Shown: one piece after another, positions 5,545 through 8,524 of the stretch | How positions within the stretch are numbered: the first letter of the stretch is position 1 | Layout: each line of letters starts with the position of its first letter | From: Bacillota bacterium | GTDB lineage: Bacteria; Bacillota; Clostridia; Saccharofermentanales; UBA5734 | Direction: 5' to 3' | NCBI GenBank assembly: GCA_023438965.1 | Contig: JAEXPB010000567.1 | Location: forward strand, 1-8,919 | DNA: 8,919 bases | Notes under the pieces: model-generated | What the model saw: only the letters and a program-made list of their open reading frames with translations | The model's database searches: none | What the model was told of the DNA's origin: nothing | Translations under genes and position numbers: made by a program

Positions 5545-6138
5545 TCAAGCCAGGAGATGCTCCAGCACGATTTTGATCCCAAGCAGGATCAGCACGCTGC
5601 CGCCGACCAGGCAGGCATTGCGCTGGAACAGAACACCCAGCCGTTTACCAAGCAGCGTGCCGGATGCAGCGACCAAAAAGGTGATCAGACCGATAATCAG
5701 GATGGCCGCAAGGATCGATGTGTTCTCAAAGGCCAGGCTGATGCCGGCAGCCAAGGCATCGATGGAGGTTGCGACAGCCAGGGTGGCCAGGCGGCGGCTG
5801 GACGTCGGGTCCTCAACCGGGCAGGCCGGCGCATCGGCTTCGGTATCGGACACCGTTTTTTCGTGCAGGGTTTCGAAGATCATTTTACCGCCGAGGAAGG
5901 CCAGCAGCGCAAACGCCACCCAATGGTCGAGCGGGCGGATCAAATCGATGACCCGCGTCCCGGCCAGCCAGCCCAGGAAAGGCATCAGGGCTTGACAGGT
6001 GGCAAAGAACAAGCCGACTTTCAGGGCGTGCCGGATCCGGATGCCCGATTTGCAGATACCGATGGTCACCGATACCGCCAGGGTGTCCATTGACAGGCTG
6101 AGGCCCAATAATACCAGTGTTAATATCTGTATATACAT
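5545..6138 (-). CDS. mntP: Manganese efflux pump MntP
   Basis: A 197-residue polytopic membrane protein that exports Mn2+ from the cytoplasm. It shows the two-fold repeated MntP pattern: an acidic motif in the first membrane segment (LSLSMDTLAVS, Asp18), its counterpart in the second half (VATSIDALAAGISLAF), the conserved ALMPFLGW stretch, HWVAFALLAFLGGKMI, and a C-terminal VGGSVLILLGIKI segment. About six membrane helices are expected, with a hydrophilic loop between the halves. The start MYIQILTLVLLG at 6138 is chosen over an in-frame ATG at 6180 because the predicted -10 box covers that ATG; AGAGGA lies 13 bases before 6138, slightly far. The gene is divergent from the XRE-type regulator. 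The leader is too short for the manganese yybP-ykoY riboswitch that often controls this family. Confidence 0.93.
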   Translation of the reverse strand: MYIQILTLVLLGLSLSMDTLAVSVTIGICKSGIRIRHALKVGLFFATCQALMPFLGWLAGTRVIDLIRPLDHWVAFALLAFLGGKMIFETLHEKTVSDTEADAPACPVEDPTSSRRLATLAVATSIDALAAGISLAFENTSILAAILIIGLITFLVAASGTLLGKRLGVLFQRNACLVGGSVLILLGIKIVLEHLLA

Positions 6139-6175
6139 ATGGATGCGCCAATCCTCTTCTCGCAGTTGTTTGCCC

Positions 6176-6184
6176 ATCATAGCA
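6176..6184 (-). promoter_or_regulatory. Extended -10 promoter of mntP
   Basis: The minus strand reads TGCTATGAT, an extended -10 element identical to the one before the CNNM gene. The -35 region is poor, which is typical of extended -10 promoters. Transcription should start near 6169, about 30 nt before the mntP start. The TGTCA array begins about 47 bases further upstream. Confidence 0.55.
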
Positions 6185-6230
6185 AAAAAGCAGCCAAATT
6201 ACCAGAATTTGATTAGGGGGCAACCTTTTT

Positions 6231-6297
6231 TGTCATCACCGGATGTCACATCATGTCATTGACATCTTGTGTCATTTCATGTCATAATATGATGACA
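6231..6297. repeat. Array of TGTCA half-sites in the divergent promoter region
   Basis: In 67 bases there are five direct TGTCA copies (starting at 6231, 6244, 6254, 6270 and 6280) and two inverted TGACA copies (6260-6264 and 6293-6297). They form two perfect inverted repeats: ATGTCA-T-TGACAT (6253-6265) over the -35, and TGTCAT-6 bases-ATGACA (6280-6297) over the -10 of the XRE gene promoter. This looks like an operator array; the likely binder is the adjacent HTH protein (inference). Confidence 0.75.
6259..6288 (+). promoter_or_regulatory. Promoter of the XRE-type regulator gene
   Basis: TTGACA (6259-6264) is followed after 18 bases by CATAAT (6283-6288). Transcription would begin near 6295, giving a leader of about 60 nt. 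Both hexamers lie within the inverted TGTCA repeats, so binding there would block RNA polymerase. Confidence 0.7.
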
Positions 6298-6355
6298 GTT
6301 TATCAATATACCAGTAAGAAAAAAGCATATTGCATTGCAGGCAACGGAGGCTGTC

Positions 6356-8014
6356 ATGAATTTCGATCAGAAATTGAATGCCCTGATGCATCTATTCAAG
6401 ATTAGCAACAGCCAGCTGGCCCGGGGCATTAATGTTGATGCTTCGTTGGTCAGCCGCTGGAAGTCCGGCGAACGGAAAATATCCATCAATTCGCCGCATA
6501 TCCCGGTTTTAGCCACTTACTTTCTCCACTTGAACGCCTATCAGTACCAGCGGGAGTACCTGGAGCGCATCATCACAGCCCGGCTGCCGGAGAAGCAGCG
6601 GGTCGAGGAAGCGCAGCGGATTCATGTCCTGGCCGATTGGCTGGTATCCGAAGAGTCACCCGACCCCCAGCCGGACGAACAGCCGGAGCAACTGGCGCAA
6701 TCCGTCAGCCTGATCAACAATTTGTCAAACATCCTGATCGACCCGGGCAGTGTCCGAGCCAGCGTGATCCAGGCCATGGCCGCGGCCCAGCCGGCAGCTG
6801 CCGGACAGCCGGAAGCGGATTGGCAGCCGAACGCGCAGCCCGGCACGGCAGCAAGCTACGAGATCTTCGAGGGGCGCGCCGGTCGCCGGCAGGCGGTGAT
6901 CAATTTCCTGAACCAGGTATTGAATTCGGATAAACCGCTGGATATCCTGCTCACCAGTGAGGATGACACCCGCTGGATCACCGAAGACCGTAATTTCGCT
7001 GTGCTCTGGGCACAGCTGCTTGGTCAGGCGATAGCCCAGGGCCATCAAATCACCATTATCCATGTGCTCAGCCGCCGTATCGGAGAAATCATGACCATGT
7101 TGAATTACTGGATGCCGCTGCATATGGCCGGCCGCTTGAATTCCTATTTTTATCCGCGGTACGGCGAACGCCGGATCCGGCAGACCATGTTCATCGTCCG
7201 CGATCAGATGGCGCTGATTTCGCATAATATTGCTGACTATACCGGGCCGGAGTTGAATTTCGTCTACAACGACCTGCCCACCGTACAGCAATTCACCCGC
7301 CAGTTCATGGTCCATGTCGGTCAGTGCCGTCCTCTTTTTGCTGTTTTTACCGCTCAGAACGCCAAAGCTTATTTTGAACGTGTTCTCGAGTTGAGCAAAA
7401 AGCCGGGCGCGGTTTTTTGCATCCGTCATCAGTTGAACATCCGGCTCCTGTCGCCGATAATCCTGAGCCAGTATCTGCATAAGAACAGCGGCATGCTGTC
7501 CGAATCGCAACTGACCGCCTGGCTGGCCAGCCAGCAGCAGAGCTTCTATAATCAACTGGAACGTGAACCCTATGTCGATATCCTGCCCGTGTCCCTGCTG
7601 GAAAACATCCAGCAGCAGAAATACACCTATGTCGGTTGCTGCGAGACCTTCTCCGAGCGTCCGATCCAGATTCGAATGGCCGATACGCAGGCCTGGCTGC
7701 AGCAAACTGTCGACACCCTGCGTAAATACGACAACTATGAAGTTTATTTGTGCAGCGACACCCATGCCATCGATGATTTGCAGATCAATATCACTTACAA
7801 GGAAAATACCATCGCCCAGTTCGCATCCTCCGCGCGGGAGAAACGGTTGAATTCGATCATCCAGATCAGTGAGAACAACATCCTGCATTCCATGAGCTAC
7901 TACTTCGACAATTTCATCCAGCAAATCGCACCGTCCCTTCGCAACCGGAACGATGTCATCCTGCGATTGGAACGGCTGATTGCCAACCTCGCCGGATCGG
8001 CGACACGGAAGTGA
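6356..8014 (+). CDS. XRE-type helix-turn-helix protein with a large uncharacterised C-terminal region
   Basis: A probable DNA-binding regulator of 552 residues whose function I do not recognise. Residues about 3-45 form a lambda-repressor-like HTH (ISNSQLARGINVDASLVSRW). A helical segment follows (about 48-98), then a linker rich in Pro, Gln and Ala (about 99-168). A compact domain (about 175-292) has hydrophobic strands LDILLTSED, QITIIHVLSR and QTMFIVRDQMALIS, plus an LNYWMPLHMAGRLNSYFYP stretch. This looks like a phospholipase-D-like fold without HKD motifs, as in some sensor domains; that is inference. The remainder (about 300-552) is mixed and ends in a helical tail. No membrane segment is seen. 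The start at 6356 has GGAGG five bases upstream; an in-frame TTG at 6335 is less likely. The promoter is covered by the TGTCA array. No terminator separates it from the mutarotase gene 93 nt downstream. Confidence 0.85.
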   Translation: MNFDQKLNALMHLFKISNSQLARGINVDASLVSRWKSGERKISINSPHIPVLATYFLHLNAYQYQREYLERIITARLPEKQRVEEAQRIHVLADWLVSEESPDPQPDEQPEQLAQSVSLINNLSNILIDPGSVRASVIQAMAAAQPAAAGQPEADWQPNAQPGTAASYEIFEGRAGRRQAVINFLNQVLNSDKPLDILLTSEDDTRWITEDRNFAVLWAQLLGQAIAQGHQITIIHVLSRRIGEIMTMLNYWMPLHMAGRLNSYFYPRYGERRIRQTMFIVRDQMALISHNIADYTGPELNFVYNDLPTVQQFTRQFMVHVGQCRPLFAVFTAQNAKAYFERVLELSKKPGAVFCIRHQLNIRLLSPIILSQYLHKNSGMLSESQLTAWLASQQQSFYNQLEREPYVDILPVSLLENIQQQKYTYVGCCETFSERPIQIRMADTQAWLQQTVDTLRKYDNYEVYLCSDTHAIDDLQINITYKENTIAQFASSAREKRLNSIIQISENNILHSMSYYFDNFIQQIAPSLRNRNDVILRLERLIANLAGSATRK

Positions 8015-8107: not shown

Positions 8108-8446
8108 ATGAGTGAAAAGAACGCTACGCAGAGAGTCGCTTGGAAAGCCCGGATCAAGGCGGGAACCGAAGCCGAGTACATTCGCCGGCACGATGAGATC
8201 TGGCCGGAAATGACCGCGGTCCTGAACGATGCCGGTATCCGGAACTATTCGATCTGGCTGGTCGGTCTGGAATTGTTTGGTTATTACGAATGCGATGACA
8301 TGGATCTGGCCGCCCGCGTCCAGGCCGGCAGTCCGGTCGTCGACCGTTGGAACGAGTATATGAAGGACATCCTGATCATGGACTTCGACCCGGAAACCGG
8401 TGTGACACCGCCGTTGAAGCAGGTCTTTTTCCACGCCGGGAAGTAA
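8108..8446 (+). CDS. rhaM: L-rhamnose mutarotase
   Basis: A 112-residue member of the rhamnose mutarotase family (DUF718), which interconverts the alpha and beta anomers of L-rhamnose or a related sugar in the cytoplasm. Family motifs: EYIRRHDEIWPEMTAVL, with Tyr24 and the acid/base His28 matching Tyr18 and His22 of E. coli RhaM; NYSIWL; the RWNEYM segment with Trp81; and the C-terminal LKQVFF, like the LQEVFY of RhaM. It is about eight residues longer than E. coli RhaM, mostly at the N-terminus. The start at 8108 has AAGGAG ten bases upstream; the ATG at 8084 would put that SD site inside the gene. It is probably co-transcribed with the XRE-type regulator and is followed by a strong terminator. 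No isomerase, kinase or aldolase gene for rhamnose lies in the window. Confidence 0.92.
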   Translation: MSEKNATQRVAWKARIKAGTEAEYIRRHDEIWPEMTAVLNDAGIRNYSIWLVGLELFGYYECDDMDLAARVQAGSPVVDRWNEYMKDILIMDFDPETGVTPPLKQVFFHAGK

Positions 8447-8481: not shown

Positions 8482-8524
8482 AAAAACGGACTCGCGTTAG
8501 CTATAGCCGCGTGAGTCCGTTTTT
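8482..8524 (+). terminator. Bidirectional Rho-independent terminator after rhaM
   Basis: The arms AACGGACTC (8485-8493) and GAGTCCGTT (8513-8521) form a perfect 9-bp stem, extended inward by a GCG/CGC stem after a small bulge. It is followed by a T-run (8520-8524) and preceded by AAAAA (8482-8486), so it can act on both strands. It closes the XRE-rhaM transcript. Confidence 0.9.

Follow-up and report, generated by a model that had tools for sequence, protein, structure and literature searches.

An array of seven TGTCA half-sites as the probable autoregulatory operator of an XRE-type regulator with PLD-like domains

The proven system nearest to the locus studied here appears, by analogy, to be RcoLS20 of pLS20, for which the available part of the report (PMC4207663) describes seven copies of the motif spread over its own promoter, the overlapping divergent promoter and their surroundings, with binding proven by gel shift and footprinting. 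The window (the whole stretch of 8919 bases that was analysed) encodes a regulator which, compared with the same part of that source, resembles RcoLS20 in having an Xre-type helix-turn-helix (HTH) and, as a multi-copy array over its own promoter (a predicted one in the window), seven short motif copies of mixed orientation on and around this promoter. Also common to both are divergent promoters, which in the window are predicted, and an overlapping inverted repeat whose arms are one base apart, TTTCAgTGAAA in RcoLS20 and TGTCAtTGACA in the window; autoregulation has been shown for RcoLS20 and is what we infer for the window regulator. The two differ in the motif, which is CAGTGAAA in RcoLS20 and TGTCA in the window, and in operator number: the same part of the report gives RcoLS20 a further operator at a distance of 75 bp, with looping of the DNA, whereas no second cluster was seen in the window. 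The TrmB proteins are, in the portion of PMC4158304 at hand, winged-HTH proteins, and the motifs given there for TrmB/TrmBL1/TrmBL2 are TACT-N3-AGTA and TATCAC-N5-GTGATA rather than TGTCA. In contrast, the window regulator combines a Cro/C1-type HTH with two tandem PLD-like domains and, unlike the TrmB family, has no match to PF01978 or PF11495; among 35 relatives, matches at E up to 0.1 fall to five families, and neither of these two is one of them. A further likeness is to the MntR array at mneP of Bacillus subtilis, where the part of PMC11275975 consulted places adjacent sites over ~80 bp, one of them on the -35, next to a manganese exporter gene, as the window array adjoins mntP. According to this source, however, MntR belongs to another protein family, uses 18-bp sites and activates the exporter, whereas the window array lies on the regulator's promoter.

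In the window, the ORF for the 552-aa regulator is followed by a rhaM-like gene, and the genes to its left encode a PPIase-domain protein, a resolvase-like protein, a HAD phosphatase, a CNNM transporter and MntP. Motif placement confirmed the statement of an earlier, sequence-only reading that the 67 bases from 6231 to 6297, between mntP and the regulator ORF, hold seven TGTCA/TGACA half-sites (Table 1). On the + strand they are arranged as TGTCA-8-TGTCA-5-TGTCA-1-TGACA-5-TGTCA-5-TGTCA-8-TGACA, with start-to-start steps of 13, 10, 6, 10, 10, and 13. The two inverted repeats that had been described over TTGACA and CATAAT were recovered as IR1 and IR8, the latter reading TGTCAT-N6-ATGACA, with a spacer of 8 when the arms are counted as five bases, and so were the direct copies toward mntP at 10- and 13-base steps (starts at 6231, 6244, and 6254). 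An additional TGTCA at 6352-6356 overlaps the start codon of the regulator gene and was left out of the half-site count.

Table 1. Coordinates of the array, its predicted promoter and the neighbouring genes in the window, and of small PH-like genes at related loci
Feature	Position	Strand	Remarks
mntP, divergent neighbour	5545..6180	-	Pfam PF02659, E 1.7e-49
Possible mntP extended -10, TGC-TATGAT	6176..6181	-	Read by eye; promoter scan without match there
Half-site 1, TGTCA	6231..6235	+	mntP side
Half-site 2, TGTCA	6244..6248	+	mntP side
IR1, TGTCA-T-TGACA	6254..6264	.	Half-sites 3 and 4; spacer 1; contains the predicted -35 hexamer
Half-site 3, TGTCA	start 6254	+	Left arm of IR1
Predicted -35 of regulator gene, TTGACA	6259..6264	+	Promoter scan; overlapped by IR1
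Half-site 4	6260-6264	-	TGACA on +; right arm of IR1
Half-site 5, TGTCA	6270..6274	+	Inside the -35/-10 spacer; forms TGACA-5-TGTCA with half-site 4
IR8, TGTCA-N8-TGACA	6280..6297	.	Half-sites 6 and 7; spans the predicted -10 and transcription start
Half-site 6, TGTCA	start 6280	+	Left arm of IR8
Predicted -10, CATAAT	6283..6288	+	Promoter scan; preceded by TG-N (extended -10 from half-site 6); overlapped by IR8
Half-site 7	6293-6297	-	TGACA on +; right arm of IR8
Regulator ORF, 552 aa	6356..8011	+
rhaM-like gene, downstream of regulator	8108..8446	+	Pfam PF05336, E 1.5e-23
Small PH-like gene	L008:4289-4591	-
Small PH-like gene	L022:6841-7167	-
Small PH-like gene	L023:6829-7167	-
Small PH-like gene	L007:17132-17446	-
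Small PH-like gene	L010:6581-6886	-
Small PH-like gene	L011 and L028	-

The array is the densest 67-base stretch of half-sites in the window, across which TGTCA is enriched as a whole (38 matches versus 15.3 expected). A chance origin of the array is excluded: compared with the seven half-sites observed, first-order Markov simulation gave at most three per 67 bases in 300 versions of the whole window, and at most six when the 175-base intergenic stretch by itself was copied 5000 times. A scan of 6050-6420 gave one sigma-70-like site, with 11 of 12 matches and a spacer of 18; as shuffled sequence averages 0.9 sites at the lower threshold of the scan (at least 9 of 12 matches), the scan by itself is weak evidence for a promoter. 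Transcription of the regulator gene would start near 6295, which would place half-site 7 on the transcription start. An RNA element was considered and rejected, since the array strand folds modestly (z -1.83, with 12 of 200 shuffles folding equally well) and the array lies at or upstream of the predicted transcription start. Rfam gave no family at gathering score in the window, including the manganese riboswitch before mntP.

For a comparison with relatives, a profile from 35 homologues yielded 38 genome loci (L001 to L038), with helix patterns used in the fetching, and a first set of 42 loci was formed from these, the window, and L082, L083, and L085. Upstream regions of 200 bases were compared with 475 control upstream regions of other ORFs at the same loci, called mechanically (at least 150 aa) and in part spurious. 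Several of L024 to L038 match the query in the HTH only, and L011/L028, L022/L023, L035/L036, and L083/L085 were judged by eye to be near-duplicate pairs. IR1 was present in 11 of 42 upstream regions and in 1 of 475 controls (10/41 without the window, p 3e-11; 8/37 also without near-duplicates, p 3e-9), and IR8 in 6 of 42 and 1 of 475 (5/41, p 1e-5; 4/37, p 1e-4, after the same two exclusions). TGACA-5-TGTCA occurred before 8 of the 42 regulator genes and none of the 475 control ORFs (7/41, p 1e-8; 6/37, p 1e-7), and at least three half-sites per 67 bases were found in 12 of 42 versus 6 of 475 (11/41, p 2e-9; 10/37, p 7e-9). A second, more distant set from the order of another centre genome, fetched after the elements had been defined, comprised 29 loci from the 40 matching genomes among 295. 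IR1 was found in four of these loci (L162, L167, L173, and L176), or in 4 of 25 (p 2e-5 versus the first-set controls) when L150, L154, L158, and L159, which repeat L032, L017, L018, and L024, are left aside. A simple HTH rule served to assign start positions in the second set, some of which clearly lie inside the gene and may hide arrays; loci with in-frame stops were kept unaltered.

The operator reading survived the refuting condition set earlier, a lack of conservation before orthologues, as conservation was seen before some relatives, 22-43% identical to the regulator in the best tblastn segment: half-site spacings stay fixed there while the flanking bases have diverged to ~30% identity. 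The four-site layout TGTCA-1-TGACA-5-TGTCA-5-TGTCA is common to the window, L004, and L006, whose half-sites agree by choice of the pattern and whose core spacers agree at 3, 7, and 2 of 11 bases and flanks at 15, 15, and 16 of 50 bases. IR1 followed by IR8 at a distance of 4-7 bases is present in L007, L008, L009, L022, and L023, and the two TGTCA copies on the mntP side recur in L001 and L003 with a gap of 7, versus 8 in the window. L002 retains TTGACA-5-TGTCA-5-TGTCATAAT, and L082, L083, and L085 retain TTGACA-15-TGTCATAAT alone, for which a plain extended -10 promoter would suffice. The 20 upstream regions of the layout table were picked for having half-sites, so that layout counts carry no denominator. 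Arrays of at least four half-sites occur in records titled Eubacteriaceae, Erysipelotrichaceae, Tepidanaerobacteraceae, Halanaerobium, Marasmitruncus, Pseudothermotoga, and Thermotogota. In most relatives the arrays are reduced or absent, with fewer than three half-sites per 67 bases in 30 of 42 upstream regions of the first set and 25 of 29 of the second. As the recognition helix looks similar in loci with and without arrays (helix patterns having been used to fetch the first set), array and helix are not tightly coupled. Judged from these upstream regions, the TGTCA word and its spacings are old in the family and far from universal.

The regulator has no Pfam or NCBIfam match at cut-off. HTH_26 (18.8 bits, cut-off 22) and HTH_3 (16.7 bits, cut-off 23) both stay below the Pfam curated cut-off; at E up to 0.1 they match 29 and 28 of 35 relatives, respectively, and a precomputed HTH_3 domain is present in 1 of 55 family proteins (P0046). 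In the predicted model, an HTH at about residues 1-60 (mean pLDDT 90-94 for blocks of these residues) precedes tandem PLD-like domains at about 165-330 and 350-525. The HTH model superposes on the P22 c2 repressor (3jxb) with an rmsd of 1.3 over 53 columns (probability 1.00, E 0.14), which gives the regulator a predicted fold of the Cro/C1 type in common with these phage repressors; many invariant residues of the family fall in the HTH. The P22 operator is 18 bases long, the same length as IR8. Unlike the Cro/C1 phage repressors, the window has a seven-half-site array with three kinds of spacing and a regulator with a large sensor-like C-terminus. The PLD-like part of the model matches archaeal TrmB/TrmBL2 (3qph, 2f5t, and 5bpd) and other PLD folds, indicating a predicted effector fold of the TrmB type, and the catalytic PLD motif HxK(x4)D (HKD) was found in none of the 55 family proteins, window protein and fragments included. 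When PDB sequences were searched with the family profile, fibrinogen (E 0.57) was the sole match. In L030, L095, L124, L129, and L162, a tandem pair of HTH units seems to precede the PLD-like part. A defence role was rejected, the regulator having no PADLOC match and its relatives weak ones to RmrA and PDC-M64B (best E 0.0016), and so was a phage role, PHROGs matches being confined to N-terminal, HTH-bearing stretches.

The nearest relatives (P0002 to P0012, 55-59% identical) exist as proteins; a first genome scan gave no confirmed relative of this identity, and a search with P0002 of a 391-genome sample had G001 as its best match. Relatives matching at E up to 0.001, often distant ones, were found in two genome samples (40 of 295 genomes and 39 of 391) and in one order (23 of 188). 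Among the matches listed from the open-licence PMC literature, neither an XRE protein with PLD-like domains nor a TGTCA operator of this kind was found. Within the literature and databases searched, the regulator family appears to be undescribed.

The half-sites lie on the promoter and recur at matching spacings in distant relatives, which makes the array a likely switch for self-control of the regulator. We consider it probable that the adjacent HTH protein has the array as its autoregulatory operator, a reading that is well supported by the comparison with relatives, and the best reading by analogy is that it works like the RcoLS20 operator. The protein encoded at 6356-8011 would bind as side-by-side dimers or higher oligomers on the IR1, TGACA-5-TGTCA, and IR8 units, the HTH units of adjoining dimers occupying half-sites about one turn apart; the 10-base steps and the kept spacings would fit such cooperative binding. 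The half-sites overlap the predicted promoter from its -35 through the spacer and the -10 to the start, so that RNA polymerase would be shut out by the bound protein and the regulator level kept low; a ligand of the PLD-like domains would presumably lift this repression.

That the TGTCA words are mere promoter parts (a TTGACA -35 and the TG-N of an extended -10) plus chance is very improbable: two of the seven half-sites do coincide with promoter hexamers, and L082, L083, and L085 keep those two alone, but seven half-sites are far above chance, and the spacings are fixed also in loci whose IR1 lacks TTGACA, such as L008 (TGTCAcTGACA) and L009 (TGTCAaTGACA). Dual or positive autoregulation, in which upstream half-sites would activate at low occupancy and promoter half-sites repress at high occupancy, is modelled on RcoLS20, which according to the part of PMC4207663 consulted switches from activating its own weak promoter at low concentration to repressing it at high concentration. 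The half-sites at 6231 and 6244 lie upstream of the -35 and the five others on the promoter, as such a mechanism would have it. We regard it as improbable, since L002, L004, L006, L007, L022, and L023 have no half-site in the 60 bases upstream of the core and keep the promoter-side ones, and the window promoter already looks strong.

Two other explanations involve mntP. The array could control both the regulator gene and the divergent mntP, the regulator being part of manganese or metal handling. In agreement with this, L001 and L003 also have a divergent mntP, with two additional TGTCA copies on its side. CNNM, which adjoins mntP in the window, lies divergent to the regulator in L002, L083, and L085, and five other genomes have a divergent small gene sharing half-sites. 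However, there is no constant register, the nearest half-site being 49, 44, and 20 bp from the predicted mntP -10 in the window, L003, and L001, respectively; the same core is present in L004 and L006 despite other neighbours; L005 has mntP 1.5 kb from the regulator and just two half-sites; and the rhaM neighbour does not point to metals. We therefore consider control of mntP unlikely. Of the joint control suggested by the sequence-only reading, the part concerning mntP is thus improbable, and the notion of a shared divergent operator is better supported for another partner gene, in L008, L011, L022, L023, L028, and the second array of G004. Use of the site by another protein or a manganese sensor (an MntR array or a riboswitch) for mntP control has a precedent in the four 18-bp sites on which MntR is reported at B. 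subtilis mneP in the part of PMC11275975 consulted, yet is extremely improbable, as the words stand before the regulator gene even where mntP is not a neighbour and no Rfam match reaches gathering score in the window.

In most of the genomes tested, though not in all, exact matches to three-site or promoter patterns were concentrated at the regulator's own promoter. The three-site pattern TGTCA-N-TGACA-N(3-8)-TGTCA matched in 10 of 13 genomes with a relative and was absent from G001, G010, and G011. The regulator's own promoter was the single place in G002, G003, G005, G006, and G007; G004 had a second place besides the regulator, a near-copy lying 9.6 kb away in front of a small gene, and G008 had the regulator and one site within an ORF. 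The two matches each in G012 and G013 all lie within ORFs. G009 (L044, L052, L056 to L059, and L077 to L079; 1.6-Mb genome) had nine TGTCAATGACA-N-TGTCA matches, far above the other genomes: one at the regulator, seven within ORFs, and one before an ORF (L059). Twelve of the 13 off-regulator places (G008, 1; G009, 8; G012, 2; G013, 2) are thus within ORFs. A single match to TGACA-N(12-19)-TGTCATAAT was present in each of five genomes out of eight; it lies at the regulator's promoter in G011, G181, G182, and G190 and away from the regulator in G010.

A global regulon defined by IR1 was rejected, as 13 of the 15 further IR1 sites in G002 and G006 are within ORFs. In coding sequence GTC-AAT/ATT-GAC can encode V-N/I-D, and 10 of the 13 ORF-internal sites stand without a further half-site in the surrounding 160 bases. 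TGTCANTGACA was counted 139 times versus 34 for a reversed-pattern control (one strand, 18 genomes), and because IR1 sites are mostly ORF-internal, this excess is not claimed as regulon evidence. The other two sites (L136 and L141) are intergenic, so that there may be additional targets, among them ones with fewer half-sites than the regulator promoter. L141 (G002:C218, near 1800), with TGTCATGTCAaTGACA ~120 bp before an ORF, is a possible second target. The target set is likely narrow, with the regulator gene as its core and a single divergent neighbour added in some lineages.

A recurring neighbour of this kind encodes a member of a family of small proteins of ~100 aa with a motif near LKTGFFK and a predicted PH-like fold. 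Its gene is divergent across TGTCA half-sites in L008, L011, L022, L023, and L028, the shared half-sites in L011 and L028 being IR1 only. In G004, the near-copy of the array (L054:1501; G004:C36:91102) stands before a small PH-like gene, and a very large ORF lies between the regulator and this second array. The small PH-like protein is a likely partner of the regulator, and since the divergent small gene shares half-sites in five genomes, two-way control is plausible within the family.

It is possible, though on balance doubtful, that these proteins form an undescribed, widespread one-component class and bacterial counterpart of TrmB, with a Cro/C1 HTH and two catalytically dead PLD-like domains. 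Such proteins would read a TGTCA spacing code (IR1, TGACA-5-TGTCA, and IR8) both at their own promoter and at a divergently oriented partner gene, which in several lineages encodes the small PH-domain-like protein, and the switch would be set by a phospholipid-type or phosphorylated ligand sitting in the dead PLD pocket. The array offers a first likely DNA target for a family whose window member is below all Pfam and NCBIfam cut-offs. The half-site code makes targets of the family searchable, the ligand could be tested with a simple reporter, and the recurring spacings provide naturally occurring variants for examining how a single HTH may read inverted repeats with spacers of 1 and 8.

Some further features of the window and its relatives were recorded. 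A rhaM match adjoins the regulator in L002/L081, L082, L083, and L085 and not in L003; given this repeated adjacency, the two genes possibly form an operon. After rhaM, at 8486-8524, a GC-rich inverted repeat followed by T5 resembles an intrinsic terminator by eye. A second terminator-like feature, also read by eye, is the imperfect inverted repeat AAGGTGTCAATT-CA-AATTGTCACCTT at 847-872, which runs into a T stretch and contains two TGTCA words separate from the array.
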